From Clostridiales bacterium (GTDB lineage Bacteria > Bacillota > Clostridia > Christensenellales > Borkfalkiaceae): a stretch of 59,668 nt of DNA. The stretch spans positions 1 through 59,668 of the forward strand of contig SVHT01000003.1 in assembly GCA_015055615.1 (NCBI GenBank), in the 5' to 3' direction. Both the position numbers and the translations under genes were made by a program. Below the pieces are notes generated by a model. It did no database searches and was not told where the DNA came from. It saw only the letters and a program-made list of their open reading frames with translations. Of this stretch, positions 39,142-55,560 are shown piece by piece (position 1 is the stretch's first letter; each line of letters opens with the position of its first letter).

Positions 39142-39891
39142 ATGAAATCTCCCTTTGAGATTAAGAAGGAAATTTGCGAAGTAGGCCACAAGCTCTGGAC
39201 CAAAGGTTTCGTTGCAGCAAACGACGGTAACATCTCCGTTAAGATTAGCGAGAATGAATATTACTGTACCCCTACGGGCGTGTCCAAGGGCGATCTTACC
39301 CCTGATATGATTATCAAGGTTGACAAAGACGGTAAAAAGCTCGAAGGTAAGCTCAACCCTTCGTCCGAAATCAAAATGCACATGAGAGTATATCGCGAAC
39401 GCCCCGACGTAACGGCGGTTGTTCACGCGCATCCTCCCGTTGCTACGGCGTTCACGGTTGCGGATATCGACCTCGACCAATACATTTTGCCCGAAGCAGT
39501 TTTGACGATCGGCGACGTTCCTACCTGCGATTACGGTACTCCCTCGACGATGGAAATTCCCGATTCGCTCGATCCGTATATTCAGAACCACGACGCGTTC
39601 TTGCTTAGAAACCACGGCGCATTGACGGTTGGCTGCAACCTTCAAAAGGCGTTCTTCGTTATGGAAGAAGTTGAATTCAACGCGGTTATCTGCAAACACG
39701 CTATGGACCTTGGCGCAGTACATGAAATTTCCAGCGATCAGCTTAAGAAATTGATGGATCTTCGTAAGAAGATGAACTTGCCCGGCAGACACCCTGGTAT
39801 CGATTACGGTGACGAACATGCTTGCAACTGCGCAAACGCAGACCTCGTAGAAACGATTACGAAGAAAGTTTTGGCGGCTCTTGGCAAATAA
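39142..39891 (+). CDS. Class II aldolase for L-rhamnulose/L-fuculose-1-phosphate with encapsulation tail
   Basis: 249 residues. FVAANDGNISVKISENEYYC is the phosphate-binding start, LNPSSEIKMHMRVYRERPDV and VVHAHPPVATAFT hold the catalytic Glu and zinc His residues, and FLLRNHGALTVGCN the third His. After a Cys/Asn-rich linker (HACNCANAD) the last 17 residues DLVETITKKVLAALGK form an amphipathic helix of the type that targets enzymes into microcompartments. It cleaves the ketose phosphate to DHAP and L-lactaldehyde, so the aldehyde should be released inside the shell, as in glycyl-radical fucose/rhamnose compartments. Confidence 0.92.
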   Translation: MKSPFEIKKEICEVGHKLWTKGFVAANDGNISVKISENEYYCTPTGVSKGDLTPDMIIKVDKDGKKLEGKLNPSSEIKMHMRVYRERPDVTAVVHAHPPVATAFTVADIDLDQYILPEAVLTIGDVPTCDYGTPSTMEIPDSLDPYIQNHDAFLLRNHGALTVGCNLQKAFFVMEEVEFNAVICKHAMDLGAVHEISSDQLKKLMDLRKKMNLPGRHPGIDYGDEHACNCANADLVETITKKVLAALGK

Positions 39892-39927: not shown

Positions 39928-41385
39928 ATGGCAATCAATTGGACAGAAGCTCAGATTGAAGAAGTGGTTGCCGCGGTGATTAAGAACTTGGGTGGAAACG
40001 CAACGACGGCGAAGAGCGGTTGGGATTCCACGCAATACAACGGTCGCAGACTTATCGGCGTTTACGCGGATATGAACGATGCGATTGAGGCGGCTACGAC
40101 GGGGTACAAAGCGATTCGCGCGATGTCCCTCGAAGAGCGCGAAAAGGTAATTTCCGCAATTCGTGAACTCACGCGCAAGGAGGCGCCTATTATGGCGAAC
40201 CTTGGCGTTACGGAAACGAAGATGGGGCGCGTATCGCACAAGACGGCAAAGCATATGCTCGTTGCGGACAAGACCCCCGGCACGGCAGACATCGTATCCC
40301 ACGCAAAGACGGGGGACCACGGTTTGACCTTGACGGAAATGGCGCCCTTTGGCGTAGTCGGCAGTATCACCCCCAGTACCAACCCTTCGGAAACGGTAAT
40401 CTGTAATAGTATCGGTATGATTGCGGCAGGGAACGGCGTTGTTTTCAACCCTCACCCCAACGCAATCGCAACCTCCAACTACGCAGTAGACCTTGTCAAC
40501 CGCGCCAGCGCGATGGCAGGCGGTCCTGCGGTACTCGTTGCCTCCGTGGTAAAACCCACGCTTGATACGGCGCAGATTATGTATAAACACCCCAACATCC
40601 GTTTGCTCGTATGTACGGGCGGTCCCGGGGTAGTAAGATCGGTACTTTCCAGCGGTAAAAAGGCAATCGGCGCGGGCGCGGGTAACCCTCCCGTAATCGT
40701 TGACGACACCGCGGATATCAAGAAAGCAGGTAAGGACATCATCGACGGCTGTTCGTTCGATAATAACTTGCCTTGTATCGCGGAAAAGGAAGTTTTCGCG
40801 TTTGCGAATATCGCGGACGAGCTTATTTCCGAAATGCAGAAAAACGGCGCGTACAAAATCACGGCGGAACAGGCGAACAAGCTTGCAAACATCGTTTTGG
40901 TGGAAACGAAAAATCCCAAGACGGGCATCGTGAAAAAGACGGTCAGCCGTGACTGCGTAGGCCGTGACGCAGCGGTGCTTTTGAACAAAATCGGCGTACA
41001 CGTCGGTCCGGAAATCCGTTGTATCATCTGCGAAACGAACTTTGAACATCCCTTCGTGCAAGAAGAATTGATGATGCCGATTCTGCCCATCGTCCGCGTA
41101 AGCGGTATCGACCAAGCGATTGACTTGGCGGTAAAGGCGGAACACGGCAACCGTCACACGGCGCATATGCACTCGAAGAATATCGACCATCTCACCCGCT
41201 TTGCAAAAGCGGTGGAAACGACGATTTTCGTCAAGAACGCGCCCTCGTACGCAGGCATCGGGTTCGGCGGCGAAGGACATACGACCTTCACGATTGCAGG
41301 GCCTACGGGTGAAGGTTTGACCAGCGCGCGGAGCTTTACCAGATTCCGCCGTTGCGTAATGACCGATTATTTCAGAATTATATAA
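39928..41385 (+). CDS. pduP: CoA-acylating aldehyde dehydrogenase (PduP-like) with N-terminal encapsulation peptide
   Basis: 485 residues. Residues 2-22, INWTEAQIEEVVAAVIKNL, form an amphipathic encapsulation helix joined by a flexible linker to the catalytic domain. FGVVGSITPSTNPSETVICN binds NAD, GAGAGNPPVIVD is typical for EutE/PduP, and DNNLPCIAEKEVF carries the catalytic Cys283. It oxidises propionaldehyde with NAD and CoA to propionyl-CoA within the shell. It recycles CoA with PduL and NAD with the alcohol dehydrogenase next door. Confidence 0.95.
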   Translation: MAINWTEAQIEEVVAAVIKNLGGNATTAKSGWDSTQYNGRRLIGVYADMNDAIEAATTGYKAIRAMSLEEREKVISAIRELTRKEAPIMANLGVTETKMGRVSHKTAKHMLVADKTPGTADIVSHAKTGDHGLTLTEMAPFGVVGSITPSTNPSETVICNSIGMIAAGNGVVFNPHPNAIATSNYAVDLVNRASAMAGGPAVLVASVVKPTLDTAQIMYKHPNIRLLVCTGGPGVVRSVLSSGKKAIGAGAGNPPVIVDDTADIKKAGKDIIDGCSFDNNLPCIAEKEVFAFANIADELISEMQKNGAYKITAEQANKLANIVLVETKNPKTGIVKKTVSRDCVGRDAAVLLNKIGVHVGPEIRCIICETNFEHPFVQEELMMPILPIVRVSGIDQAIDLAVKAEHGNRHTAHMHSKNIDHLTRFAKAVETTIFVKNAPSYAGIGFGGEGHTTFTIAGPTGEGLTSARSFTRFRRCVMTDYFRII

Positions 41386-41406: not shown

Positions 41407-42609
41407 ATGGATATTACTTCTTCTCAGGTAGAAAGCATCGTCCGTAAAATTCTCGGTGAAATGGGTTCGGCGGCAAGACCTACTTCCGCAGGCAAAATCC
41501 CCAAAACCGCGAAAGTGGCTATGCTCACCGCGCAGAAAAAGATTGAAGTCAAAGAATATCCCGTACCCGCGCTTGGGGACGACGATATCTTGGTTAAGGT
41601 TGAAGGCTGCGGCGTGTGCGGTACGGACGTTCACGAATGGAAGGCAGACCCGTTTGGTATCATCCCCGTAACCCTCGGACACGAAGGCACGGGCGAAATC
41701 GTATACCTTGGTAAAAATATCAAATGCGATACGTCGGGCAAGCCTATCAAAGTCGGCGACAAGCTCGTTACCAGCGTTATCAGCTGCGGCGAATGCCACG
41801 TCTGCCGTAATCATCCTGCAAACACCAACCTCTGCGACAAGCAAGGCGTGTTCGGGTTGATTCCTCATAGCGACGCAAACCCTTTGACGGGTTGGTTTGC
41901 AGAATATCTTTTGATTCGCGGTAAGGGCTCTACGTATTTCGTAGTAAACGACCTCGATTTGAAAGAAAGAATGATTTTGGAACTTGCTTGCGTATGCGTA
42001 CACGCGTTGAAGAGAGCGCAAACGACGGGTCTTATTAACTTCAACTCGAAAGTGTTGATTCAAGGTCTTGGCCCCGTTGGTTTGGTTATGATTAGCGTAT
42101 TGCGCGCGGCAGGTATCAACCACATCATCGCAATCGACGGTACGCCAATGCGTTTGGAAATGGCGAAAAAGCTCGGCGCGAAGACGGTTATCAACTTCAA
42201 GGAAGTGACGACGCTCGACGCAAGAGTGAAACTCGTTAAGAGCGTGGCAAACGGCGTGGGCGCAGACTTTGCGTTCCAATGCACGGGCGCTCCTGCAGCG
42301 GCAAAGGATATTTTCGAATATATCCGTCGTGGCGGCGGGCTCTGCGAAATGGGTTTCTTCGTAAACAACGGTGAATACAACGTCAACCCTCACTTTGCAA
42401 TGTGCAATAAGGAAATCAACCTCGTTGGTTCTTGGGACTATTCGGCAGACGATTATCCCACGACGATGGCGTTCCTGCGTCAGGCAAGAGAAATGAACAT
42501 TCCCATCAAGGATTTGATCACGCACGAATTCCCGCTCGACCAGCTCAACGAAGCGATGGAAGTCAACGTGGCGCAGAAGGGTATCAAAATTTGCTACGTG
42601 GCAAAGTAA
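41407..42609 (+). CDS. Zinc-dependent medium-chain alcohol dehydrogenase with encapsulation peptide
   Basis: 400 residues. The first ~19 residues, DITSSQVESIVRKILGEMG, form an encapsulation helix, followed by a linker. GCGVCGTDVHEWK and GHEGTGEIVYLG supply catalytic zinc ligands; CGECHVCRNHPANTNLCD the structural zinc site; LIQGLGPVGLVMISV binds NAD. Most propanediol compartments use an iron-type PduQ, so a zinc MDR enzyme is a substitution. It may reduce propionaldehyde to propanol and could also reduce lactaldehyde to propanediol, for which no other enzyme is visible in the operon. Confidence 0.9.
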   Translation: MDITSSQVESIVRKILGEMGSAARPTSAGKIPKTAKVAMLTAQKKIEVKEYPVPALGDDDILVKVEGCGVCGTDVHEWKADPFGIIPVTLGHEGTGEIVYLGKNIKCDTSGKPIKVGDKLVTSVISCGECHVCRNHPANTNLCDKQGVFGLIPHSDANPLTGWFAEYLLIRGKGSTYFVVNDLDLKERMILELACVCVHALKRAQTTGLINFNSKVLIQGLGPVGLVMISVLRAAGINHIIAIDGTPMRLEMAKKLGAKTVINFKEVTTLDARVKLVKSVANGVGADFAFQCTGAPAAAKDIFEYIRRGGGLCEMGFFVNNGEYNVNPHFAMCNKEINLVGSWDYSADDYPTTMAFLRQAREMNIPIKDLITHEFPLDQLNEAMEVNVAQKGIKICYVAK

Positions 42610-42630: not shown

Positions 42631-42948
42631 ATGGCGCTTGGCATGATAGAAGTTTTCGGTTTCGCAACGTCGATTGTGGTCGCGGACGCTATGGCGAAAG
42701 CGGCGGACGTACAGGTCGTGGCGATCGATAAAAACAAACCCGCGGCAGGGGACGACGCGCGTGTGCCTTTGGTTATGGCAATCAAAGTCGAAGGTAGCGC
42801 GGCGGCGGTTGAGGCTGCGATTCAAGCGGGCAAAGCCGAAGCCGAAAAACGTGAATTGTATATTACGCACAAAGTAATCGCTCGTCAGAGCGAGGATATC
42901 GAGTGGTTTGCTCGTTTGAGCGCGCTCGGCAAAGACAAATTAAGATAA
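42631..42948 (+). CDS. Microcompartment shell protein, BMC-H (long variant)
   Basis: 105 residues. MALGMIEVFGFATSIVVADA and AADVQVVAIDKNKP are the first half of a BMC domain; VEAAIQAGKAEAEKRELYIT and HKVIARQSEDIEWF the second. It has an insertion in the loop after residue 35 (PAAGDDARVP) and a longer C-terminus (SALGKDKLR) than PduA types, and its pore loop cannot be assigned safely. It forms hexagonal tiles of the shell facets and is the most divergent of the four BMC-H proteins here. Confidence 0.9.
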   Translation: MALGMIEVFGFATSIVVADAMAKAADVQVVAIDKNKPAAGDDARVPLVMAIKVEGSAAAVEAAIQAGKAEAEKRELYITHKVIARQSEDIEWFARLSALGKDKLR

Positions 42949-42984: not shown

Positions 42985-43260
42985 ATGATGGAAGCATTGG
43001 GTATGGTAGAAACCAGAGGTCTTGTAGCGGCAATCGAAGCGGCAGATGCAATGGTAAAGGCAGCAAACGTAGTATTGATCGGCAGCGAAAAGATCGGTAG
43101 CGGTTTGGTAAGCGTTATGGTTCGCGGCGACGTTGGCGCAGTAAAAGCTGCGGTAGAAGCAGGTACGGCTGCTGCAACGGCTCTTGGCGAAGTTATCGCT
43201 ACGCACGTAATCCCTCGTCCTCACGCAGACGTTGAGAAACTTCTTCCCTCCATTAAATAA
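42985..43260 (+). CDS. pduA: Microcompartment shell hexamer protein, PduA/PduJ-type (copy 1)
   Basis: 91 residues, typical PduA length. [20 protein letters not shown] is the hallmark start and [20 protein letters not shown] contains the pore loop KIGSG, as in PduA. The end is [14 protein letters not shown]. Hexamers form shell facets with a small pore for propanediol. It differs from copy 2 at 43774 by one residue (Ala for Met before DVEK) apart from the extra Met. Bases 43000-43220 are identical to 43786-44006. It has AAGGAG at 42970. Confidence 0.97.
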
Positions 43261-43424: not shown

Positions 43425-43697
43425 ATGAAGGCAATAGCGTTACTCGAAGTACAGGCTATGGTTGCCGCAATCACCGGGCTGGACGCTATGGTAAAAGCAG
43501 CTGACGTAAAGCTGATACACGTAGAAAAGCGGCTCGGCGGCAGACTGGTAACGGTCGTTGTCGAGGGTGAAGTTTCCGCGGTAAAGGCGGCGCTTGAAGC
43601 GGGCGCGGCTGCGGCGGCGGAAGTCGGTAACGTAAAGGTGTGCGAAGTCATCGCGCGCCCCCATCCCGACGTTATGAGATTTTTAACGACGGGCTAA
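43425..43697 (+). CDS. Microcompartment shell hexamer protein, BMC-H (third variant)
   Basis: 90 residues. MKAIALLEVQAMVAAITGLD replaces the ALGMVETRG start, and HVEKRLGGRLVTVVVEGEVS the pore segment, where RLGGR takes the place of KIGSG. Arg in the pore loop should make it more positive than in the PduA-like copies and may change what passes. The C-terminus RPHPDVMRFLTTG is standard. It sits between the two nearly identical PduA copies and is clearly not a recent duplicate. Confidence 0.92.
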   Translation: MKAIALLEVQAMVAAITGLDAMVKAADVKLIHVEKRLGGRLVTVVVEGEVSAVKAALEAGAAAAAEVGNVKVCEVIARPHPDVMRFLTTG

Positions 43698-43773: not shown

Positions 43774-44046
43774 ATGGAAGCATTAGGTATGGTAGAAACC
43801 AGAGGTCTTGTAGCGGCAATCGAAGCGGCAGATGCAATGGTAAAGGCAGCAAACGTAGTATTGATCGGCAGCGAAAAGATCGGTAGCGGTTTGGTAAGCG
43901 TTATGGTTCGCGGCGACGTTGGCGCAGTAAAAGCTGCGGTAGAAGCAGGTACGGCTGCTGCAACGGCTCTTGGCGAAGTTATCGCTACGCACGTAATCCC
44001 TCGTCCCCATATGGACGTTGAAAAACTTCTTCCTTCTATCAAATAA
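43774..44046 (+). CDS. pduJ: Microcompartment shell hexamer protein, PduA/PduJ-type (copy 2)
   Basis: 90 residues, same as the protein at 42985 except MDVEK for ADVEK near the C-terminus. A perfect AGGAGG site lies at 43760-43765, better than that of copy 1, so it may be made in larger amounts. Synonymous changes occur only in the first few and last ~15 codons, which points to recent duplication or gene conversion of the middle. It provides the main facet tile together with copy 1. Confidence 0.97.
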
Positions 44047-44215: not shown

Positions 44216-44875
44216 ATGGAAATTACTAGCGCGCAGATTGCGGAATTGGTTAAAAAAGTATTGGCGAATATGGACGGAACGGACGTTTCCGTAAACAGCG
44301 ACGGCGAAGTGCCCGTAGGCGTATCCAATCGTCATATTCATTTGAATAAAGCGGATTTGGAAACGCTCTTTGGTGCGGGTTACGAGCTCACACCCTTAAA
44401 GGATTTGTCTCAGCCGGGGCAGTATGCTTGTAAAGAAACGCTGACCTTGATTGGGCCCGCGATGCGCCCGATTGAAAACGTGCGCGTACTTGGTCCGCTC
44501 CGCAGTAAATCGCAGGTGGAAATTTCCGCGACCGATTCGTACGTGTTAAAGGTAAAACCGCCCGTACGCGAATCGGGTAAAACGGAAGGCTCTGCGCCCG
44601 TAACCATTATCGGTCCGAAAGGGGTGGTGCAATTAAAAGAAGGTTGCATTATCGCAAACAGACATATCCATATGTCCCCTGCGGACGGCGCGAAATTCGG
44701 TGTGCAGGACAACGACACGGTAACGGTGGACGTCATTGGCAAACGCCGTACCCGTTGGTACGACGTGCAAGTGCGCGTGCACAAAGATTTCCGTTTGGAA
44801 ATGCACGTGGATACGGACGATGCGAACGCAGTCGGTATCGGCAACGGCGCAAAAGTAAAAATTGTGAAGGAGTAA
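44216..44875 (+). CDS. pduL: Phosphate propanoyltransferase with encapsulation peptide
   Basis: 219 residues. Residues 1-21, MEITSAQIAELVKKVLANMD, form an encapsulation helix similar to that of the alcohol dehydrogenase. The catalytic part has two half-barrels, each with a zinc-binding motif: VGVSNRHIHLNKADLETLFG and ANRHIHMSPADGAKFGV. It converts propionyl-CoA and phosphate to propionyl phosphate and CoA inside the shell, keeping a private CoA pool. It is of normal length and complete. Confidence 0.96.
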   Translation: MEITSAQIAELVKKVLANMDGTDVSVNSDGEVPVGVSNRHIHLNKADLETLFGAGYELTPLKDLSQPGQYACKETLTLIGPAMRPIENVRVLGPLRSKSQVEISATDSYVLKVKPPVRESGKTEGSAPVTIIGPKGVVQLKEGCIIANRHIHMSPADGAKFGVQDNDTVTVDVIGKRRTRWYDVQVRVHKDFRLEMHVDTDDANAVGIGNGAKVKIVKE

Positions 44876-44882
44876 CAAACGC

Positions 44883-45131
44883 ATGTTAAGAGGAATTATC
44901 AGAGGACATATCGTATCCACGAAAAAGCAAGAATCGCTCGTAGGTTCAAAATTTATGGAAGTAGAGCTTATGAAAAACGGTCAGTTGACGGGTGATTTTA
45001 TCATCGCGGTGGACAGCGTTGGGGCTGGTATCAACGAAGAAGTATTGATTACGACGGGTAGCTCCGCTCGTTTGGCGCTCAATAACACGAACGCGCCTTG
45101 CGACGCAGTTATCGTAGGTATCGTGGACTAA
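44883..45131 (+). CDS. pduN: Microcompartment vertex protein, PduN/EutN-type pentamer
   Basis: 82 residues. MLRGIIRGHIVSTKKQESLV is the typical start (G-x-V/I-x-S-T-x-K), VDSVGAGINEEVLITTGSSA the central strand pair with the conserved G-S-S-A, and DAVIVGIVD the C-terminus. Pentamers cap the corners of the shell. It begins 7 bp after pduL, so both are probably translated from the same mRNA segment. Confidence 0.95.
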   Translation: MLRGIIRGHIVSTKKQESLVGSKFMEVELMKNGQLTGDFIIAVDSVGAGINEEVLITTGSSARLALNNTNAPCDAVIVGIVD

Positions 45132-45184: not shown

Positions 45185-46504
45185 ATGGATTTGAAAGAGA
45201 TAATGAAAAACGCAGGCATTGTCGGCGCGGGCGGCGCGGGCTTTCCTTCGTACGCAAAATTGGCGGACGGAGCGGATACCCTTGTCGTAAACGGCGCGGA
45301 ATGCGAACCTCTGCTGTATACCGACTATATCCTTTTAAAAAGGGAGATGCCGATGGTGCTTTCGGGAATTAAGGCGGTGATGGATTACGCCAAAATTCCT
45401 TGCGCTTTGCTCTGCGTAAAAGAGCATACCGCCGTCCGTTTAAAATGGAAAGACGGCGCGAAGCTGGCGGATAGAATCATTTTGAAAACGTTGCCCGACG
45501 TATATCCGATGGGCGACGAAATCAGCTTGATTTATCAGGCGACGGGCAGAGTGGTAAAGCCCGGCAATTTGCCCATTACTTCGGGCGTGATTGTACTCAA
45601 CGTGGAAACGCTGTACAACGTCGCGCGCGCGGTAAAGACGGGCGCTCCCGTTACGGAAAAATACGTGACGATTGGCGGGGATATCCCCGAGGCAATCGTG
45701 GTAAAGGTGCCAATCGGTACCCCCGTGGCGGACTTATTTGCAACAAATTCGATAACAATCCCCGAGGGATACACCGTTTTAGACGGCGGACCTTCGATGG
45801 GTAAAGTAATAGACCCCGAAAATGCGGTGATTACCAAAACGACGAAAGGACTGTTGATTTTGCCCGATAATTGCGAGGCGATTTTGTCCAAATATTTGGA
45901 CGGCGATAAATCGATTGCAAGGGCGGAAACGGCGTGCTGTCAATGTACCCGCTGTACGGATATGTGTCCTCGGCATTTGCTCGGCTATCCGTTAGAACCG
46001 CACAAAATGGTGCGTACGGCGAAATCGGCGGTAACGGTGATGCCCGAAATGGTGATTTCCGCTACCCTTTGTTGCGGTTGCGGTATTTGCGAAACTCTCG
46101 CATGCTGTCAAGGCATTTCGCCTAAGGCAGTCATCAACGAATACAAATCCCTGCTTGCGAAAAATAAAATGCGGTACGTGGGAAAAGACGAGGTATACCC
46201 CGCAATCGAGCGTGATTGGCGTATGATCCCTTCCGAGCGTTGGGCAAACGTTTTGGGCGTAGCAAGGTTTGATAAGCTCGCAAAATATATCGGGGAACAG
46301 ACGTATAACAAAGTGGAAATTTTGCTCCGTCAGCACATCGGCGCGCCTAGCGTACCGGGTGTAACGGACGGGGACGTAGTAAATGCGGGCGACAAAATCG
46401 CCGAGGCGGCGGAGGGCTTGTCCCTTCCTCAATATGCGCCGATATCGGGCAGAGTAACGGTATTCGACGGAGAAAAAATCGTGATTGAAAAGGTGAGTGA
46501 ATAA
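45185..46504 (+). CDS. pduS: PduS-like RnfC-type iron-sulfur flavoprotein
   Basis: 439 residues. GIVGAGGAGFPSYAKL is the N-terminal Nqo1/RnfC nucleotide-binding signature, VNGAECEPLLYTDYIL the FMN region. Two 4Fe-4S clusters are encoded by CCQCTRCTDMCPRHLLGYP and LCCGCGICETLACCQ. A C-terminal lipoyl-like hairpin ends with APISGRVTVFDGEKI. In coenzyme-B12 systems PduS reduces cobalamin; here no B12 enzyme is visible, so it more likely moves electrons for NAD recycling or for the radical SAM activase. It overlaps the pduT start. Confidence 0.92.
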   Translation: MDLKEIMKNAGIVGAGGAGFPSYAKLADGADTLVVNGAECEPLLYTDYILLKREMPMVLSGIKAVMDYAKIPCALLCVKEHTAVRLKWKDGAKLADRIILKTLPDVYPMGDEISLIYQATGRVVKPGNLPITSGVIVLNVETLYNVARAVKTGAPVTEKYVTIGGDIPEAIVVKVPIGTPVADLFATNSITIPEGYTVLDGGPSMGKVIDPENAVITKTTKGLLILPDNCEAILSKYLDGDKSIARAETACCQCTRCTDMCPRHLLGYPLEPHKMVRTAKSAVTVMPEMVISATLCCGCGICETLACCQGISPKAVINEYKSLLAKNKMRYVGKDEVYPAIERDWRMIPSERWANVLGVARFDKLAKYIGEQTYNKVEILLRQHIGAPSVPGVTDGDVVNAGDKIAEAAEGLSLPQYAPISGRVTVFDGEKIVIEKVSE

Positions 46505-47049
46505 TGTTTAAAGCAATTGGCGTAATTGAACTGAAAAGTATTCCCAAAGGCGTGGAAGCAACGGACGCGGCGCTCAAAAGCGCGGGCGTGGATATGGTAT
46601 CTGCGCACCCGTCTTGTCCTGGTAAATACGAAATTATTTTGACGGGCTCGATTTCCAACGTCACGGCGTCCGTCGATCACGTACTTTCCAAATTTGAAGG
46701 CTACGTTATCGATAGCTCGATTATGGGGCGTATCGACGAACAGGTTATCAAGGCGCTGTTCGGTACGCAAAAGACGGAAAGAAAGGGCTCGCTCGGGTTG
46801 ATTGAAACTTTCTCGGCGGCGACGACGATAAAGGCGGCGGATATCGCGGTAAAGACGGCGCGCGTAGAAATTTTCGACCTTCGCGTTTCGCGCGGTATGG
46901 GCGGTAAGGGCGTTGTAATGCTCGTTGGCGAGGTCGGAGACGTAACGGCGGCGGTCGAGGCAGGTTCGGCGTATGCAAAACAAAGCGGTCAGCTTTCGTC
47001 CGAATCGATTATCGCAGCTCCCCACGAAGATTTGTGGAATCAACTTTGA
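46504..47049 (+). CDS. pduT: PduT-like trimeric shell protein (tandem BMC) with iron-sulfur site
   Basis: 181 residues made of two BMC domains (about 1-85 and 95-181). Cys38 in HPSCPGKYEI corresponds to the cysteine that in PduT trimers holds one 4Fe-4S cluster in the central pore. The second domain starts with GSLGLIETFSAATTIKAADI. It shares the ATAATG junction with pduS, whose protein is its known electron-transfer partner. Together they could pass electrons across the shell. Confidence 0.94.
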   Translation: MFKAIGVIELKSIPKGVEATDAALKSAGVDMVSAHPSCPGKYEIILTGSISNVTASVDHVLSKFEGYVIDSSIMGRIDEQVIKALFGTQKTERKGSLGLIETFSAATTIKAADIAVKTARVEIFDLRVSRGMGGKGVVMLVGEVGDVTAAVEAGSAYAKQSGQLSSESIIAAPHEDLWNQL

Positions 47050-47061
47050 TAAGGTGTAATT

Positions 47062-49593
47062 ATGGAAAATATCAAATTTGTTATTGAAAAAAGCGCAAGA
47101 ATTGAAAAATTGGTAGACGCTTTGTATCAAAAAATGCCCGAAATCGAATCGGCGCGCGGGTTGCTCGTCACCGAAAGCTATAAGCAGACGGAAGACTTGC
47201 CTATTATTTTGCGCCGTAGCGCGGCGTTCGCGCATATTTTGCGTCATATCCCCATCGTAATCCGTGACAACGAACTCATCGTCGGTAGCGCAACGGTTGC
47301 GCCCCGCGGTTGTCAGGTATTCCCCGAATACTCCTACGAGTGGTTAGAGGCGGAATTCGACACGGTGGCAACGCGCGCGGCAGACCCCTTCTATATCAGC
47401 GAAAAGACGAAGGCAGAGCTCCGCGGCGCATATCCCTATTGGAAAGGCAAGACCAACAGCGACCTTGCCAAAGCGAATATGGCGCCCGAAGCCTACGAAG
47501 CTTTCGTAACCCACGGTATGTTCACGCCCGGCAACTATTTCTATAACGGTATCGGGCACGTTAACGTAAACTACGAAAAGGTGCTCAAAATCGGCTACCG
47601 CGGTATTATGGCGGAGGCGCAAGCGGCTATGGATAAGCTGTGCGTGGCGGACCCCGAATACGTACAAAGACACAATTTCTTGGCGGCGGTTATCGAATCG
47701 TGCGAAGCGGTTATCGAATACGCGCGCAGATACGCAAAGCTCGCCAAAGAGCTTGCGCTCAAAGAAACGAACGCCGAAAGAAAGGCGGAACTTGAAAAAA
47801 TTGCAAAAAATTGCGCGCACGTGCCCGAAGGACCCGCGCGTGACTTCCACGAGGCTTGTCAATCGTTCTGGTTTATTCAGCTTTTGTTGCAGGTGGAATC
47901 GAGCGGGCACTCTATTTCCCCCGGTCGTTTCGACCAATATATGTATCCTTTCTATAAAAAGGATATCGACGCGGGGAAGATTACCATCGAGCAAGCGCAA
48001 GAGCTTATCGACTGTATTTGGGTAAAACTCAACGATATCAACAAGGTACGTGACGCGGGCTCGGCGGACGGTTTCGCGGGTTACGGTATGTTCCAAAACC
48101 TGATTGTAGGCGGTCAAGATATCCACGGTATGGACGCGACGAACGATTTGTCGTATATGTGCTTGGAGGCGGCAATGCACGTGCCTCTGCCTCAGCCGTC
48201 CATTTCCGTTCGCGTATGGAACGGTACGCCCCAATCCTTTATGATTAAAGCGGCGGCGCTCACCCGTTTGGGTACTGGTTTGCCCGCGTATTATAACGAC
48301 GAAGTTATTATTCCGTCCATTATGGCGAGAGGTTTGACGTTGGAAGACGCGCGCGATTATTGTATCATCGGTTGCGTAGAGCCTCAAAAGGGCGCAAAGA
48401 CGGACGGTTGGCACGACGCGGCGTTCTTCAATATGTGTCGTCCTATGGAGCTCGTGTTCTCCAACGGTATGGACAAAGGCAAGCAAATTGGCCCGCAGAC
48501 GGGGGACGTGTCGCAAATGACGACCTTTGAAGAGGTTTTCGAGGCGTATAAAACGCAACAGAGCTACTTTATAAAGCTCCTTGTCAATGCGAACAATGCA
48601 ATCGATATGGCGCACGCTGTACGTTGTCCGTTACCTTTCCAATCTTGTATGGTGGACGATTGTATCGGCAGAGGCAAATCTTTGCAGGAAGGCGGCGCAA
48701 TCTATAACTTTACCGGTCCGCAGGGCTTTGGTATTGCCAACAACACCGACGGCTTGCTTGCAATCAAGAAACTCGTTTTCGAGGACGGCTCGGTAACTTT
48801 GACTGAACTGCGCGATGCGATGAACGCCAACTTTGGTTACGGTTTGAGCGGAAAGGCGGCGGAACGTGTCGTAAACGAAGTGGCATGCTCGCTCGCAAAA
48901 GCGGGGATTGAAGTCAATGAAAACGTTATCAAGACGATTTACGACGAAGTGACGTCGGGCGCAGGTATCGACGCGCAAAAGAAAGCGCGTTATCAAGAAA
49001 TCAAGCGCTTAATCGACGAAACTTGCCCTAAATACGGCAACGATATTTACGAGGCGGATATGTTCGCGCGCGAAGTTGCGAACACGTACACCAAGGAAGT
49101 GGAAAAATACAAGAACCCTCGTGGCGGTATCTTCCAGGCGGGCTTATATCCCGTATCGGCAAACGTGCCTTTGGGTGCGCAGACGGGCGCAACCCCCGAC
49201 GGTAGATTGGCGTTCACGCCGATTGCGGACGGTATCGGTCCCGCGTCGGGCAGAGACGTCAAAGGACCTACGGCGACGGCGAACTCGGTGGCAAAATTGG
49301 AGCAAGGCGTAGCGTCTAACGGTACGTTGCTCAATCAGAAATTCCACCCCTCGGCGCTGGCGGGTATGAGCGGTTTGACCAAATTTGCGGCGCTTATCCG
49401 TTCGTATTTCGACCAAAAGGGTATGCACATGCAGTTCAACGTTGTCACGCGCGAAACGTTGCTTGACGCGCAGAAAAACCCCGAAAAATACAAGACGCTC
49501 GTCGTCCGTGTTGCAGGGTACAGCGCATTGTTCACGACGTTGTCCAGATCGTTGCAGGACGATATTATCAACAGAACGGAACAAGGCTTTTAA
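47062..49593 (+). CDS. Glycyl radical enzyme, B12-independent 1,2-propanediol dehydratase type
   Basis: 843 residues, complete. The active-site loop is YCIIGCVEPQ with Cys438 (thiyl radical) and Glu440 (general base), as in diol dehydratases. The radical loop near the C-terminus is RVAGYSALFTTLS with Gly819. The H/E/D residues around SGHSISPGRFDQYMYPFY belong to the diol-binding pocket. It has no clear extra encapsulation peptide at the N-terminus. In the context of aldolase and PduP the substrate should be 1,2-propanediol, giving propionaldehyde; glycerol is an alternative but has no partner genes here. Confidence 0.94.
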   Translation: MENIKFVIEKSARIEKLVDALYQKMPEIESARGLLVTESYKQTEDLPIILRRSAAFAHILRHIPIVIRDNELIVGSATVAPRGCQVFPEYSYEWLEAEFDTVATRAADPFYISEKTKAELRGAYPYWKGKTNSDLAKANMAPEAYEAFVTHGMFTPGNYFYNGIGHVNVNYEKVLKIGYRGIMAEAQAAMDKLCVADPEYVQRHNFLAAVIESCEAVIEYARRYAKLAKELALKETNAERKAELEKIAKNCAHVPEGPARDFHEACQSFWFIQLLLQVESSGHSISPGRFDQYMYPFYKKDIDAGKITIEQAQELIDCIWVKLNDINKVRDAGSADGFAGYGMFQNLIVGGQDIHGMDATNDLSYMCLEAAMHVPLPQPSISVRVWNGTPQSFMIKAAALTRLGTGLPAYYNDEVIIPSIMARGLTLEDARDYCIIGCVEPQKGAKTDGWHDAAFFNMCRPMELVFSNGMDKGKQIGPQTGDVSQMTTFEEVFEAYKTQQSYFIKLLVNANNAIDMAHAVRCPLPFQSCMVDDCIGRGKSLQEGGAIYNFTGPQGFGIANNTDGLLAIKKLVFEDGSVTLTELRDAMNANFGYGLSGKAAERVVNEVACSLAKAGIEVNENVIKTIYDEVTSGAGIDAQKKARYQEIKRLIDETCPKYGNDIYEADMFAREVANTYTKEVEKYKNPRGGIFQAGLYPVSANVPLGAQTGATPDGRLAFTPIADGIGPASGRDVKGPTATANSVAKLEQGVASNGTLLNQKFHPSALAGMSGLTKFAALIRSYFDQKGMHMQFNVVTRETLLDAQKNPEKYKTLVVRVAGYSALFTTLSRSLQDDIINRTEQGF

Positions 49594-49731: not shown

Positions 49732-50517
49732 ATGGACATTTACGGTACGAAAGGTAGAATATTCAATATTCAAAGATTCTCGATTCACGACGGACCGGGA
49801 ATCCGTACCATTGTCTTTTTTAAAGGTTGTTTTATGCGTTGCGCATGGTGTTGCAACCCCGAATCGCAGTCCTACGAAATTCAGACCATGCAAGAAAACG
49901 GCAAGGAAAAAATCGTCGGCAGAGACGTGACGGTGGGTGAAATTCTGCCTGAATTGCTTGCAGACGTGCACTATTATCGCCGTAGCGGTGGCGGTATTAC
50001 CTTGTCGGGGGGCGAAATTTTAGGTCAGCCCGATTTTGCAAGAGATTTGCTCCGCGCGTGCCAAGAAAACGGCTTGCATACGGCGGTGGAATCAACGGCG
50101 AACGCGCCCTATGAAAACATTGAAAAGATTTTGCCTTATCTTGATTTGTATCTTATGGATATTAAACACATGGATTCGGCAAAACACAAAGAATTTACAG
50201 CGGCTGGAAACGAACGCATTTTGGAAAATGCAAAGCGCTTGGCAACAAGCGGTGTAGAGCTCGTTATCCGTACCCCCGTTGTGCCCGGTTTTAACGATAC
50301 GGCGGAAGAAATCCGCGCGATTGCAAAGTTCGCGGCGAGCTTGCCTGGCGTGAGAGAGCATCATTTGCTCCCGTATCATCGTTTGGGACAGGACAAGTAC
50401 GCGGGCTTGGACAGAAATTACGCGCTCAAAGGCGTTGAACCGCCCACGCAGGAGAGGATGGAGTATTTGCTGTCGGTGGCGGAAGAGAGCGGCTTAAAGT
50501 GCCAAATAGGCGGCTAA
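49732..50517 (+). CDS. Glycyl radical enzyme activase (radical SAM), short type
   Basis: 261 residues. FSIHDGPGIRTIVFFKGCFM leads to the radical SAM motif C33-x3-C37-x2-C40, within GCFMRCAWCCNPES. GGGITLSGGEILGQPDFA is the SAM-binding GGE region, and LYLMDIKHMD and VELVIRTPVVPGFNDTAEEI follow as in PflA. The 8-cysteine ferredoxin-like insert found in most diol-dehydratase and choline-lyase activases is absent, so it has the PflA-like minimal form. It generates the glycyl radical on the dehydratase encoded just upstream. Confidence 0.95.
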   Translation: MDIYGTKGRIFNIQRFSIHDGPGIRTIVFFKGCFMRCAWCCNPESQSYEIQTMQENGKEKIVGRDVTVGEILPELLADVHYYRRSGGGITLSGGEILGQPDFARDLLRACQENGLHTAVESTANAPYENIEKILPYLDLYLMDIKHMDSAKHKEFTAAGNERILENAKRLATSGVELVIRTPVVPGFNDTAEEIRAIAKFAASLPGVREHHLLPYHRLGQDKYAGLDRNYALKGVEPPTQERMEYLLSVAEESGLKCQIGG

Positions 50518-50678: not shown

Positions 50679-51038
50679 ATGCAGTTACAAGATAAAATGA
50701 CAATTATACAAGAATTTGTCCCTGGTAAACAGATCACCCTTTGCCACATTATTGCAAACCCCGGTGAAACGCTGTATACCAAACTCGGGCTTGACCCGCA
50801 GACCGATTACACTAAGAGCGCAATTGGCGTTTTGACGGTTATCCCGTACGAAAGCGCGGTTATCGCGGCGGATATCGCCATGAAATCTTCTGGCGCGGAA
50901 ATCGGTTTCGTAGACAGATTTACGGGTACGTTGATTATCACGGGCAGTGTTTCGTCCGTCGAATCGGCGTTTACGGCAATTAGAGAATATTGCATTAACA
51001 AGCTCGGCTACGCTTGTTGCGAATTGACAAAAACCTAA
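50679..51038 (+). CDS. pduU: PduU/EutS-type circularly permuted shell protein
   Basis: 119 residues. RIQ-like start MTIIQEFVPGKQITLCHIIA is the N-terminal beta-barrel strand of PduU/EutS, then AIGVLTVIPYESAVIAADIA and GFVDRFTGTLIITGSVSSVE form the permuted BMC fold. Such proteins form hexamers with a beta-barrel plug on one face, important for assembly or cargo contact. It is followed 20 bp later by the PduV-type GTPase, a known interaction partner of PduU. Confidence 0.94.
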   Translation: MQLQDKMTIIQEFVPGKQITLCHIIANPGETLYTKLGLDPQTDYTKSAIGVLTVIPYESAVIAADIAMKSSGAEIGFVDRFTGTLIITGSVSSVESAFTAIREYCINKLGYACCELTKT

Positions 51039-51058: not shown

Positions 51059-51583
51059 ATGAAAAAGCTGATGTTGATCGGCAGAGTTGCGGCGGGCAAA
51101 ACGACCTTAACGCAAGCTTTGCGCGGTGAAGAAATTAAATATTTTAAGACGCAGTACGTCAATTATCTCGACACCGTTATCGACACGCCGGGGGAATATA
51201 CCGAACGCAGAGAAACGAGCGGTGCGCTCGCCTTATACGCGTACGAGGCGGACGTCGTAGGGTTGGTGCTTTCGTCTAACGAGCCGTACTCCATTTTTTC
51301 GCCTTGCTTGACGAGTATGGTCAACCGCGAAGTAATCGGTATCGTTTCGGGCATCGACAAGCCTGACGGCAACGTGGAACGGGTTACCCGCTGGTTAAAG
51401 CTCGCGGGGTGTAAAAAGGTGTTCCCCGTCAGCTCGATTACGGGCGAGGGAATCAAGGAATTGGCGGATTTTTTAAACGACGATACGGATAAAAAGCCGA
51501 CCAAACCAATCGTGAAAAAACCGACGGTGGAAAAACGGGAAGAACCTAAGAAAAACGGTCAATTAGACACTTGGCTGTTATAA
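51059..51583 (+). CDS. pduV: PduV/EutP-type GTPase with basic tail
   Basis: 174 residues. KKLMLIGRVAAGKTTLTQAL is the P-loop, VIDTPGEYTERR the switch II/G3 region, and VSGIDKPDGN with FPVSSITGEGIKEL the G4 and G5 region. PduV proteins associate with the shell surface and have been linked to compartment movement. The last 30 residues form an extra Lys/Pro-rich tail (KKPTKPIVKKPTVEKREEPK) ending LDTWLL. The small protein at 52378 has a similar basic stretch and a YYLL end. It lies directly before the ParA gene. Confidence 0.92.
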   Translation: MKKLMLIGRVAAGKTTLTQALRGEEIKYFKTQYVNYLDTVIDTPGEYTERRETSGALALYAYEADVVGLVLSSNEPYSIFSPCLTSMVNREVIGIVSGIDKPDGNVERVTRWLKLAGCKKVFPVSSITGEGIKELADFLNDDTDKKPTKPIVKKPTVEKREEPKKNGQLDTWLL

Positions 51584-51599
51584 AAAACGGAGAGATACT

Positions 51600-52391
51600 A
51601 TGAGCAAAACGAAAGTGATTGCATTTGCGAACAACAAGGGGGGTAGCGGTAAAACGACCACTTGCTCCAACGTGGGTTGCGCCTTGGCGTTGTCGGGTAA
51701 AAAAATCCTGATGATTGACGGGGATATGCAGCTGAATTTGACCATTTCTTTCTTTGACGAGGACACGGCGTACGAATATGCCAAGGGCGAAAAGAATATC
51801 TATCGCGCCGTCGTCGGGGAAAAGGATTTGGACGATTATATCGTGCCGACGGGGATTGAAAATCTCGATATCGTGCCTTCGACGTCCTTGATGAGCTCGA
51901 TTGAATTCGATTTGTTTGGCAAATGGCAACGCGAAACGATTTTGAAAAAATGCTTGGAACGTGTCCGCGCGAAGGGGTATTACGATTATATCTTAATCGA
52001 CTCGCCTCCCACGCTCGGCGGTTGGGTAATGAACGTTATGTGCGCGTCCGATTACGTGGTAATTCCCGTAGAGGCGAGCCCTTGGGGATTGTTCGGTTTG
52101 GCGAATATGTTTGAGTTTTGCGAACAGGCAAAGCGTATCGCGCCCAAGCTGGAAATTTTAGGTATCGCCGTCACCAAAGCGGACGAACGCAAGAAATATT
52201 TTAAACAGACGATGGAAACGCTGAAAGAGCTTGAAAACACCCGCCTTTTTGAAAACTACGTGCGCGTGGATAGCGCGGTAGAGTGGGCGCAAGACAACAG
52301 CAAGCCCGTTGTCGCTTACAAGAAAAACACCCGTAGCGCGGTGGAATATACACAACTTGCAAAGGAGATTATAGAATATGCCAATCGGTAA
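51600..52391 (+). CDS. ParA/MinD-family ATPase, candidate microcompartment positioning protein (McdA-like)
   Basis: 263 residues. The deviant Walker A box NNKGGSGKTTT carries both the signature Lys13 and catalytic Lys18; KKILMIDGDMQLNLTISF is the A' region; YDYILIDSPPTLGGW is Walker B, and VVIPVEASPWGLFGLANMF follows. This is a dimerising DNA-surface-walking ATPase of the ParA type. It is not beside the replication origin genes but ends a microcompartment operon and overlaps a small basic protein gene by 14 bp. By analogy with carboxysome McdA it probably spreads compartments over the nucleoid. The function is inferred from context. Confidence 0.9.
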   Translation: MSKTKVIAFANNKGGSGKTTTCSNVGCALALSGKKILMIDGDMQLNLTISFFDEDTAYEYAKGEKNIYRAVVGEKDLDDYIVPTGIENLDIVPSTSLMSSIEFDLFGKWQRETILKKCLERVRAKGYYDYILIDSPPTLGGWVMNVMCASDYVVIPVEASPWGLFGLANMFEFCEQAKRIAPKLEILGIAVTKADERKKYFKQTMETLKELENTRLFENYVRVDSAVEWAQDNSKPVVAYKKNTRSAVEYTQLAKEIIEYANR

Positions 52392-52674
52392 AAACGCAAT
52401 CAAAAGAGTAGAAAACAACGGTTATTCGAAGGTAGCGAGTTCCGCTCCCGACATGGAAAACAGCCACGTGATCGCAAATCCCGATCCGCAGGTTGTGGAA
52501 AAGTTGGTCGCTCCCGTAGCAGAGGCGGCTGCGGTAAAGACGACGAAAAAGTCGCCTGCAAAGAAAGCGCCCGCGAAAAAGAGCACGGCGAAAAAACCTT
52601 GCGCGAAAAAGGCGGTAAACGACGGCTTTGCGCGTGTAGAACTTGGCGCAGATATGCCCTATTATTTACTCTAA
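52378..52674 (+). CDS. Small Lys/Ala/Pro-rich partner of the ParA-type ATPase (McdB-like candidate)
   Basis: 98 residues, not a standard microcompartment family. An N-terminal motif NNGYSKV (13-19) is mirrored near the C-terminus by NDGFARV (81-87). Between them lie an acidic/Pro region (DMENSHVIANPDPQVVEKL) and a histone-H1-like Lys/Ala/Pro run (residues 54-79). The chain ends DMPYYLL. It appears disordered and strongly basic. It overlaps the ATPase gene, so the two are made together. Like McdB it could link shell and ATPase, or stimulate the ATPase; no Trp-containing McdB signature is seen. Confidence 0.85.
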   Translation: MPIGKNAIKRVENNGYSKVASSAPDMENSHVIANPDPQVVEKLVAPVAEAAAVKTTKKSPAKKAPAKKSTAKKPCAKKAVNDGFARVELGADMPYYLL

Positions 52675-52680
52675 ACAACA

Positions 52681-52728
52681 AAAAACGGCGAAAAAGACGG
52701 GACGCTTATCCCCATTTCGTCGTTTTTT
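52681..52728 (+). terminator. Intrinsic terminator of the microcompartment operon
   Basis: AAAAACGGCGAAA pairs with TTTCGTCGTTTTTT with one G-T pair, around a GC-containing loop. The T-run is part of the 3' arm. It lies 7 bp after the small-protein stop. Confidence 0.8.
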
Positions 52729-52749: not shown

Positions 52750-55560
52750 ATGAAACAGGTTGAAAAGAAATATCAATGTATTCCCTTTTGGTCGTGGAAC
52801 GATAATTTGGACGAAGAGGGATTGGTGAAACAAATCGAGTGGATGAACGAAAACGGCGTGGGTGGGTTCTTTATGCACGCGCGTGGCGGTTTAAAGACGG
52901 AATATCTCGGCGAAAAATGGTTTAGCTGTATCAAGGCTTGCTCGGAAAAAGCGCAGGAATTGGGGATGGAAGCGTACGCCTATGACGAGAACGGTTGGCC
53001 CAGCGGTTTCGTTGGCGGAAAATTGCTTGAAGATATCGAAAATCACGATAAATATCTGACCTTTAAAATCGGCGAGTACGACGAAAACGCGACGGTTTCG
53101 TACGATATGGCGGGGGACGTGCTCAAACGAACGACGTCGCCCTGCGAAAACTGCCTGAACGTGTACGAACAATATTCAGCGTCTACGGCGGACATTTTGA
53201 ACGGCGAAGTGGTGGATAAATTTATCGCCGCTACGCACGAAGAATACAAAAAACGGGATACGTACGACCTGAAAGGGTTCTTCACGGACGAACCGCAATA
53301 TTACCGTTGGGCAACCCCTTTTACTCGCGTGATGCCAAAATATTTTGCCGACACCTACGGGGAAGATATTTACGATAAGTTAGGTTTGCTGTTCGTGGAT
53401 AAGGAAGGCTATCGCGAATTCCGCTATAAATTCTGGAAAGGTATGCAGGCGTTGATGCTGAAAAACTTTGCGGAAAAGGTCTATACGTGGTGTGATAATA
53501 ACGGTTATAAGCTGACGGGGCATTACGTAGAAGAGCAGGTTATGCACTCGCAAATGGAATCCTGTGGTGGCATTATGCCGTTTTATGAATTTGAACATAT
53601 CCCCGGCATGGATTGGCTGGGTAAATGGACGGGCGGCGCGCTTGCGCCCAAGCAGGTTTCGTCGGTTGCGGCGCAGCTTGGCAAAAAACAGACGCTGACC
53701 GAAACGTTCGCGTGTTGCGGTTGGGACGTCAGCCCCCAACAGCTGAAAGAAATCGCCGAATTCCAATACGTCGGCGGGATTAACTTGATGTGTCAGCACC
53801 TTTTGCCCTACACCGAACACGGGCAAAGAAAACGCGATTATCCTTCGCATTTTTCGGCGGTTAACCCTTGGGTTAAGAAGAACTTCAAGGAATTCAACGA
53901 TTATTTTTCCTGCCTTGGCAAAACGCTTGCCGAGAGCGAAGAAATCGTCAACGTGGCAATGTTCCACCCCCTGCGCAGTACCTATTTCGTCTTCAAGCGT
54001 TTCAACGAGCCGCTGTATCAGACGGTAGACGATTTGGACGTCAAGCTGTTGGATGCGGTGGATACCTTGGTGCAAAAGCAAATCCCGTTCCATCTTTTGG
54101 ACGAAACCTTGCTGGCAAAATACGGCAAGGTCGAGGGCAAAAAGCTTATCCTTGGCAACTGCTCGTACGATTATATCGTGTTCCCGAAATGCTATACCAT
54201 GGACAAAACGAGCGAAGTTCTGTTCCGTCAGTTTGTGGAAAACGGCGGGAAAGTGTTGCTTTTGGACGTAAAACCGACCTATCTCGAATGGAACGAGTAC
54301 GCCTACGATTATCTGGAAACGAACACGTCTTGGGCGGAAATTATTGAGGCGCAGCTCTATACGGGCACGCAAAATCCGACTGTCCGTACGACCCTCCGCA
54401 AGGACGAAAACGGAAATTATTTCTTGTATGCCGTCAACGTGGGCGACGAAACGGATATCGAGTTTACCTTAAAAGGCGCGACGTCTTTCCGCTCCTACGA
54501 TATTTTGAAGGACGAATATACGATATTGCCGACCAAGCTCCATTTTGATAAAGGACAATCCTATCTGCTGTATTTCAGCAACGAAACGCCGCGGACGGAC
54601 GCGGCGCGCAAACCACTTCGCTTGGATAAGCAATTCACCGTTGCAAACACCGTGGAAAATTTCTTCACAATCGACTATATCCGCTATTCGACGGACGGGG
54701 TGACGTACAGCGAGCCCACCCACCATATGGGCGTTTTCAACGAGATGTTACAACGCAGATATAAGGGAAAACTGTATTTAAAATACGAGTTTAACGTGGA
54801 CACGCCCCCCATGAAGTGCCGTTTGCTTGCCGAAGATACCAACACGCTCGGCGTGACGGTCAACGGCGTTGCGGTCGAAAAAATCGGCTCGACAGAGATA
54901 GAAAAGGCGCTCCTTGCATACGATATTTCCCGCCTTGTGAAATCGGGCAAAAACGAGGTCGTAATAGAGATTGACTATTTCCAAAGCGAGCAGGTATACT
55001 ATGCGCTCTTCGGCGAAAACGTAACGGAAAGTTTAAAAAACTGCCTTGCGTACGACACGGATATCGAGGCGATTTTCCTGTGTGGCGATTTCGGGGTGTA
55101 CGGCGATTTCAAAAAGGGCAAAAAAGAGGACGCGATTTATATCGGCGACAACTTCCGCATAGGCACGCAAAAAACGGAAATTTGCGACCTTTTGGAGGAC
55201 GGGTATCCTTTCTTTGCGGGGGACATCACCCTTAAACAGAAAGTCTTTGTGGACGATACCAACCGTGATTTACTCATCGATTGGAATTACCATTTGATTG
55301 ACGTGACGGTCAACGGCGCGTACGTCGGCAGAATGATGTTCGGCAACAAATTGGACCTTTCAAAATACTTGCAAAAGGGCGAAAACGAAATAGAGCTCGT
55401 CGTGACGATAGGCAACCGCAACCTGATGGGGCCCTTCCACGCGTTGGAAGAAGAGCCTCTCTACGTCGGTCCGCACACGTGGGAAAGAATGGGTACGTGG
55501 AAAGAGGGCAAGAGTGATAAGGTCGCAGATGGCTACGCTTTGATAAAAACAATCAAGTAA
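52750..55560 (+). CDS. GH106-type alpha-L-rhamnosidase-like glycoside hydrolase
   Basis: 936 residues. IPFWSWNDNLDEEGLVKQIE and ENGVGGFFMHARGGLKTEYL at the start, YAYDENGWPSGFVGGKLL, DLKGFFTDEPQYY and YKLTGHYVEEQVMHSQME are the barrel strands of the large PF17132 (GH106-like) family. Several C-terminal beta-sandwich domains follow, with VTVNGAYVGRMMFGNKLDLS typical of a galactose-binding-like module. No signal peptide, so it acts on imported rhamnosides. It follows the terminator at 52681 with a GAGGAAAG site and probably feeds the rhamnose operon. Confidence 0.85.
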   Translation: MKQVEKKYQCIPFWSWNDNLDEEGLVKQIEWMNENGVGGFFMHARGGLKTEYLGEKWFSCIKACSEKAQELGMEAYAYDENGWPSGFVGGKLLEDIENHDKYLTFKIGEYDENATVSYDMAGDVLKRTTSPCENCLNVYEQYSASTADILNGEVVDKFIAATHEEYKKRDTYDLKGFFTDEPQYYRWATPFTRVMPKYFADTYGEDIYDKLGLLFVDKEGYREFRYKFWKGMQALMLKNFAEKVYTWCDNNGYKLTGHYVEEQVMHSQMESCGGIMPFYEFEHIPGMDWLGKWTGGALAPKQVSSVAAQLGKKQTLTETFACCGWDVSPQQLKEIAEFQYVGGINLMCQHLLPYTEHGQRKRDYPSHFSAVNPWVKKNFKEFNDYFSCLGKTLAESEEIVNVAMFHPLRSTYFVFKRFNEPLYQTVDDLDVKLLDAVDTLVQKQIPFHLLDETLLAKYGKVEGKKLILGNCSYDYIVFPKCYTMDKTSEVLFRQFVENGGKVLLLDVKPTYLEWNEYAYDYLETNTSWAEIIEAQLYTGTQNPTVRTTLRKDENGNYFLYAVNVGDETDIEFTLKGATSFRSYDILKDEYTILPTKLHFDKGQSYLLYFSNETPRTDAARKPLRLDKQFTVANTVENFFTIDYIRYSTDGVTYSEPTHHMGVFNEMLQRRYKGKLYLKYEFNVDTPPMKCRLLAEDTNTLGVTVNGVAVEKIGSTEIEKALLAYDISRLVKSGKNEVVIEIDYFQSEQVYYALFGENVTESLKNCLAYDTDIEAIFLCGDFGVYGDFKKGKKEDAIYIGDNFRIGTQKTEICDLLEDGYPFFAGDITLKQKVFVDDTNRDLLIDWNYHLIDVTVNGAYVGRMMFGNKLDLSKYLQKGENEIELVVTIGNRNLMGPFHALEEEPLYVGPHTWERMGTWKEGKSDKVADGYALIKTIK

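Follow-up and report, generated by a model that had tools for sequence, protein, structure and literature searches.

A ParA-type ATPase and a short tailed protein as a probable positioning system of GRM5-type microcompartments in Clostridia

Introduction

Reviews have left open how spacing and inheritance are achieved in metabolosomes that are not carboxysomes (PMC8262871, PMC13052382). ParA was noted among the ancillary genes of bacterial microcompartment (BMC) loci in 2014 (PMC4207490), and McdA/McdB-like pairs near non-carboxysome BMC operons have already been proposed (PMC8262871, PMC11321042, PMC13052382); here and below, papers are cited for those parts of their text that were available to us. 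The question is posed in concrete form by a 59,668-nucleotide stretch of DNA (contig SVHT01000003.1, hereafter the window) from a Clostridiales bacterium, in which genes for a ParA-type ATPase and a 98-residue protein end a microcompartment operon. A first-pass annotation of the window had proposed that this pair positions rhamnose compartments and that the small protein may be a new class of partner. The evidence assembled here favours, with a probability of roughly 0.74, the reading that ParA and an adaptor protein together position the GRM5 rhamnose/1,2-propanediol microcompartment, in a system probably McdAB-like in its mechanism, as judged from sequence, and probably of separate stock.

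The pair closes a GRM5-type operon

The ParA and partner genes were found to be the final genes of a GRM5-type (rhamnose/1,2-propanediol) operon, in which all features given coordinates in this paragraph lie on the forward strand. The operon starts with an FGGY sugar kinase, probably a rhamnulokinase (34539-35921; PF00370/PF02782), and an ORF that is GDSL-like by resemblance, followed by L-rhamnose isomerase (36620-37864; PF06134), acetate kinase (37921-39111; PF00871) and a class II aldolase (39142-39891; PF00596). Its middle part encodes a PduP-type aldehyde dehydrogenase (39928-41385; PF00171), a zinc alcohol dehydrogenase of the lactaldehyde-reductase type (41407-42609; PF00107/PF08240), four BMC-H shell proteins (42631-42948, 42985-43260, 43425-43697 and 43774-44046; PF00936 in each), PduL phosphotransacylase (44216-44875; PF06130, E 9e-77), a BMC-P (EutN/CcmL) vertex protein (44883-45131; PF03319, E 8e-26), an electron-transfer protein that is PduS/RnfC-like by its domain matches (45185-46504) and a PduT-like tandem-BMC (BMC-T) shell protein (46504-47049; two stretches of PF00936, E 1e-39). 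The last part comprises a glycyl-radical enzyme (47062-49593; TIGR01774, E 7e-247), probably a 1,2-propanediol dehydratase given the GRM5 gene content, its 261-residue activase (49732-50517; TIGR02494 and Pfam), a EutS/PduU-type shell protein (50679-51038; PF00936, and NF012012 at E 2e-31, below its cut-off) and a EutP/PduV GTPase (51059-51583; PF10662, E 4e-50, and TIGR02528 above cut-off). The ParA-type ATPase of 263 residues (51600-52391; Pfam AAA_31, E 5e-54) and the ORF of the 98-residue partner (52378-52674) follow. A strong terminator-like hairpin of the rho-independent kind and a short U-rich stretch come next (52680-52728; dG -19.1 kcal/mol, z -4.0), whilst a simple terminator scan listed no forward-strand terminator and an Rfam scan of the window gave no match at gathering scores.

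The GRM5 class has been described as having a PF00596 aldolase, a PF00107/PF08240 lactaldehyde reductase, a glycyl-radical enzyme, an activase lacking the PF00037 insert, PduT and PduS (PMC6325248). The window operon agrees with that description, since it encodes the PF00596 aldolase, the PF00107/PF08240 reductase and PduT- and PduS-like proteins, and a PF00037-type ferredoxin insert was absent from the Pfam results for its activase. The earlier reading of the operon end thus held: both ORFs of the pair, their 14-bp overlap, the PduU and PduV genes directly ahead of them and, by the hairpin, the terminator behind them were confirmed.

Several other features of the neighbourhood were recorded. 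Two of the BMC-H proteins (42985-43260 and 43774-44046) are near-identical, and the PduP-type dehydrogenase, the alcohol dehydrogenase and PduL carry alike short N-terminal extensions, which are probable encapsulation peptides. Past the hairpin lies a Glyco_hydro_106 (alpha-L-rhamnosidase) gene (52750-55560; domain match above cut-off); such a gene comes after the pair in some relatives, though not in all.

The ATPase is closer to Soj than to McdA

The ATPase contains the deviant Walker A motif NNKGGSGKTTT (core KGGSGK), with the signature lysine at residue 13 and the Walker A lysine at residue 18 as first annotated, and its KGGxGK[ST] motif, signature lysine and ParA fold place it among the ParA/MinD (WACA) ATPases. 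To be called an McdA, the ATPase would have to be nearer to McdA than to the remaining ParA proteins; neither of two comparisons bore this out, a point against the positioning reading. In a phmmer search of solved structures, Soj scored 108 bits and McdA 52 bits; in a Foldseek search with the AlphaFold2 model (pLDDT 86), the best matches were Soj/ParA proteins and the first McdA appeared at rank 13, with TM scores of 0.83-0.89 to Soj and about 0.84 to McdA. PADLOC returned two weak ATPase matches for the ParA and, for the partner, no match.

The microcompartment ParA is the sole Soj-like ParA detected in its own 94% complete genome, where no second such protein and no ParB_N match were found and where the further ParA relatives were, by resemblance, MinD-like and tyrosine-kinase-like only. 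As Soj is the closer relative and the genome yielded neither ParB_N nor another Soj-like ParA, this ATPase was probably recruited separately from carboxysome McdA.

A partner family defined by its two ends

The partner is a basic protein with the N-terminus MPIGKNAIKR, a Lys/Ala/Pro linker and the C-terminus DMPYYLL, so that tyrosines occupy the third- and fourth-last positions. AlphaFold2 gave it no fold (pLDDT 64, pTM 0.14), and it is probably disordered on this prediction. When a profile of the small protein (A1) was run against 391 genomes of the class, only its own match and two matches covering the Lys/Ala/Pro run were obtained; because so few relatives were reached in this way, they were sought through the ParA instead. 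Of the 37 genomes of the genus, 19 carry the small protein; one further match, in a genome of another family (E 0.009), had internal stops and was discarded as spurious. In the alignment of the 19 genus partners the N-terminal block is conserved, the Lys/Ala/Pro linker varies and the end has the form [ML]P[YF][YW]L[LM].

When named genomes were scanned with the ParA alignment, 571 stretches were matched; relatives are encoded by 150 of these, and the best 80 of the 150 loci (63-99% identity) were retained. They derive from Clostridia including Lachnospiraceae, Oscillospiraceae, Blautia, Roseburia, Acetatifactor and others, and counts across them are not independent, as near-duplicates (e.g. 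L069/L070 and L078/L079) and many genomes of the same genus are included. A partner lies directly downstream of ParA in all 80, with an overlap of 10-26 bp. The N-terminal signature M-x-[IV]-G-x-x-[SA]-[IL]-x-R was present in 80/80, one of which begins with Leu (TTG start), a result that, Arg10 included, is partly by construction because the pattern served to locate the partners; none was missing. The C-terminus played no part in finding them, and [LMI]-P-x-[YHWF]-L-[LM] nonetheless ended all 79 complete partners, the remaining one running off its contig. The third-last residue of these 79 was Y in 52, H in 14, W in 12 and F in one, and an acidic residue stood at positions -9 to -7 in 74; that it is not invariant counts against the positioning reading. 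The linker is 22% Lys and 19% Ala across the family, and the median net charge over residues 1-20 is +3. In two loci (L025:8357-9103 and L028:881-1486) an extra ORF of no assigned family lies between pduV and parA, and the PduV there has no tail.

The first-pass annotation had instead characterized the partner by two copies of N-[ND]-G-[YF]-[SA]-[KR]-V. Both are present in the window protein (NNGYSKV and NDGFARV), but since none of the partners in the best 80 of 150 loci has two copies, and 25/80 have at least one, the doubled motif does not define the family, the sequence features of which are its two ends. The absence of a C-terminal Trp is likewise true of the window protein but not of the family, 12 of the 79 complete relatives having Trp within their last six residues. 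Nor was support found for this absence setting the partner apart from described McdB-like proteins, as had been supposed: published non-carboxysome ones have Tyr or Phe in the last five residues (PMC11321042) or, in broader terms, a C-terminal aromatic residue (PMC8262871), and this family has Y, H, W or F at the third-last position.

A similar tail on PduV

Relative to PduV of Pdu microcompartments, the window PduV is the same GTPase with an added Lys/Pro-rich C-terminal tail that ends LDTWLL, hence aromatic-LL. Across the 314 ORFs of the window, the ending [WYH]LL is confined to PduV and the partner. PduV was located by tblastn in 67 of the best 80 of 150 loci; 59 of the ORFs could be read to their ends and 20 of these end in [WYH]LL, the tailed examples in relatives L042-L121 having a Lys-rich C-terminal extension that ends aromatic-LL. 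The ending occurred in none of 842 ORFs of other gene classes in the loci, the partner excepted. For comparison, 40 control BMC loci were taken, one each from 40 of the 112 BMC-positive class genomes and with the strongest shell matches; [WYH]LL ended 1 of 2379 control ORFs, and the partner tail was found in 0 of these 2379 ORFs of at least 55 residues. The PduV tail resembles the partner end but has no Pro, and 39 of the 59 PduV relatives do not have it; a binding site common to the two tails, suggested by their sequence likeness, is for these two reasons only a guess.

PduV has earlier been suggested to position Pdu compartments (PMC8262871), and its tail bears on another account of the pair, under which the small protein would be a shell-binding or assembly factor, such as a linker or condensate nucleator, and ParA would regulate assembly or turnover rather than position. 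The Lys/Ala/Pro-rich linker and the similar tail of PduV would suit such a factor, as would the influence of the McdB C-terminal aromatic on condensates (PMC11321042). A role as the partner of ParA is, however, argued by its pairing with ParA in 80/80 of the best 80 of 150 loci and by its ParB-like N-terminal box. Positioning and assembly roles can coexist, and we consider assembly in place of positioning to be unlikely.

Co-occurrence with microcompartments

Shell genes were present in 73 of the best 80 of 150 ParA loci, and L042, with pduV at a contig edge, raises this to 74/80. The genomes of the other six (L056, at a contig edge, and L098, L103, L115, L118 and L120) have shell genes elsewhere in every case, although those of L115 and L120 gave one shell match only, which weakens the association. 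The first-pass annotation had set down that its reading of the pair would be refuted if most homologues occurred in genomes without microcompartments; the opposite was observed.

In the class sample, the ParA subfamily (E <= 1e-60) was found in 3/391 genomes, one being that of the window; all three were among the 112 BMC-positive genomes and none among the 279 BMC-negative (Fisher p 0.02). Across the 37 genus genomes covered by both searches, 19/19 partner carriers were BMC-positive and 0/16 BMC-negative genomes carried the partner (Fisher p 1e-8, the genomes being related). Against a positioning role stand 109 of the 112 BMC-positive class genomes, which are without the ParA subfamily, two of 21 BMC-positive genus genomes (G016 and G030), which are without the partner, and the 40 control BMC loci, none of which has the ParA and 12 of which have both a glycyl-radical enzyme and a FucA-type aldolase. 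These last are also what accompanies the pair where it is unlinked: a BMC locus with both genes was found in all six unlinked-pair genomes considered (G315, G465, G467 and those of L098, L103 and L118), while in two genomes with the ParA and no partner (G137 and G464) the stretches read, both partial, have shell genes and no glycyl-radical enzyme. From the control, genus and unlinked-pair results, the pair is best described as a module that microcompartments may lack, observed here together with those of GRM5 type.

Some relatives do lie away from a BMC operon. The unlinked pairs L098, L103, L115 and L118, with no BMC gene within the stretches examined, stand amid what we take to be housekeeping genes (pnp, nusA-infB and truB-ribF neighbourhoods). 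Such cases, along with a ParA that is Soj-like by sequence and fold and could stand in for a segregation ATPase in a genome without a ParB_N match, would be expected if the pair served chromosome or plasmid segregation and lay near the operon by chance. The tight BMC co-occurrence argues otherwise, as do the position of the pair as the last operon genes in genus relatives with a readable operon, the five class-sample genomes of the window's family that have neither BMC nor the ParA, and the window partner itself, in which Pfam matched neither ParB_N nor any DNA-binding domain; we regard a segregation role as improbable. That the partner is a histone-like nucleic-acid-binding protein is very improbable, its weak HC2/H1-like matches (and those to DUF6465) all falling below curated cut-offs and mostly over the low-complexity Lys/Ala/Pro run, whereas conservation is concentrated at the two ends.

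ParB-domain forms in a sister family

Partners of another form were encountered in a sister family (f77), in which the ParA was present in 9/9 genomes examined and BMC genes in 8/9; the exception, 76% complete (G463), has the pair with no BMC gene seen and counts against the association. Downstream of seven of the nine ParAs lies a longer partner whose N-terminus (with a TTG start in one case) and tail (for instance DEMPTFLL, EELPEYLL and EELPTFLL) are those of the shorter form, whilst L135 and L139 have no partner directly downstream, contrary to the pairing seen elsewhere. ParB_N (PF02195) exceeded its cut-off in 7/7 longer partners, at 36 bits in one, 37-47 bits in five and 54 bits in the last, and sits between the two conserved ends. 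The 54-bit partner, a 375-residue protein (L145/L197, the same gene; L197:3605-4729), has both the Lys/Ala/Pro linker and ParB_N and so is a mosaic of the two forms. A profile of six f77 partners matched structures of Noc, ParB and Spo0J (best E 3e-9), and Pfam results for the ParB-form partners contained ParB_N alone, with no HTH domain. The nearest ParAs of a plasmid collection are 37-41% identical and are followed by a ParB/RepB-type protein (one annotated, one by resemblance) without the tail.

The ParA-binding box of ParB reads LG[RK]GL, or IGRTL in P1 (PMC12704722); the partner box [IV]G[KA]x[SA][IL] resembles it and lies outside the strict consensus [LFI]G[KR]G[LFI]. The sister-family ParB domain sitting between the same two partner ends suggests, at the level of sequence, a DNA-segregation system adapted to move organelles. 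The direction of change, loss of ParB_N in the window's lineage or its gain in f77, depends on the choice of outgroup: the ParB-form ParAs are the first to branch when six outgroups are used (96/81, the rest 92/84), with the two nearest they are nested inside, and AU tests rejected none of four placements (p 0.16-0.43).

Discussion

Compared with the carboxysome McdAB of Synechococcus and Halothiobacillus, the pair shares the order of a ParA-type ATPase and then a small partner, the basic N-terminus and a C-terminal aromatic residue. H. neapolitanus McdB is disordered (PMC11321042), as the window partner is by prediction, and its N-terminal lysines mediate McdA binding (PMC12204374). The pair differs in the nearness of its ParA to Soj, in a tail of the form P-x-aromatic-L-L and not R[VI]WPD, in a partner that has a ParB-like box and relatives with ParB_N, and in its compartment, a GRM5 metabolosome. 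The invariant C-terminal Trp of carboxysome-type McdB (WPD in the alpha type) is not a general feature of the family. ParB and PadC, the latter a ParB-type adaptor that links ParA to a non-DNA structure (PMC12704722), have an N-terminal ParA-binding box that the partner box resembles, and ParB_N in common with the sister-family partners; the window partner, in contrast, has no ParB_N, and the ParB-form partners have ParB_N alone and end in the BMC-linked tail.

The nearest published counterparts are the putative McdAB-like pairs near GRM/PDU loci (MacCready 2020/2021, Basalla 2024), which also have Tyr or Phe in the last five residues and lie near non-carboxysome BMC operons, the combination seen in the window partner and, for operon proximity, in 74/80 of the best 80 of 150 loci. 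Compared by description only, they are quite possibly the same family, and the same sequences may be listed in MacCready 2020/2021. A partner class that fits these printed predictions is not the wholly new one that the first-pass annotation had thought possible; the parts of those texts available give no family signature, ParB link or PduV tail, and these three, the ParB link in the shape of the ParB-domain forms, are new as far as our searches go. A literature search, beyond whose reach lay the original MacCready sequence lists, found none in which a ParB origin is connected with McdB-like adaptors.

In the positioning system that we favour, ATP-bound ParA dimers would, as in their family, coat the nucleoid non-specifically, and the small protein would form a disordered bridge between ParA and the shell. 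Its ParB-box-like N-terminal box, [IV]G-x-x-[SA][IL]-x-R, would touch and stimulate ParA, the Lys/Ala/Pro linker would act as a tether, and the conserved end, usually acidic-[LM]-P-x-aromatic-L-L, would dock on the shell, as is suggested by the aromatic residue at the C-terminus of McdB. Local depletion of ParA would then space and partition the compartments by a Brownian ratchet. Its origin would lie in the recruitment of a ParA-ParB pair and not in descent from carboxysome McdAB.

A fuller history can be offered tentatively. A ParA-ParB segregation pair may have become a transport system when its ParB acquired a shell-docking tail; the window lineage may then have lost the ParB domain and kept the ParA-binding box, the Lys/Ala/Pro tether and the tail, with the ParB_N kept in f77 perhaps making the adaptor nucleotide-gated, and PduV may have gained a comparable tail, which would let two nucleotide-driven proteins dock at one shell site.

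For the family, the sequence signature separates likely partners from low-complexity noise and yields a list of carriers among animal-gut clostridia (Lachnospiraceae, Oscillospiraceae and others). The partner tail is a short peptide and a candidate shell-docking tag, and the ParB-domain forms provide a specific path by which evolution could have linked DNA segregation with organelle transport.
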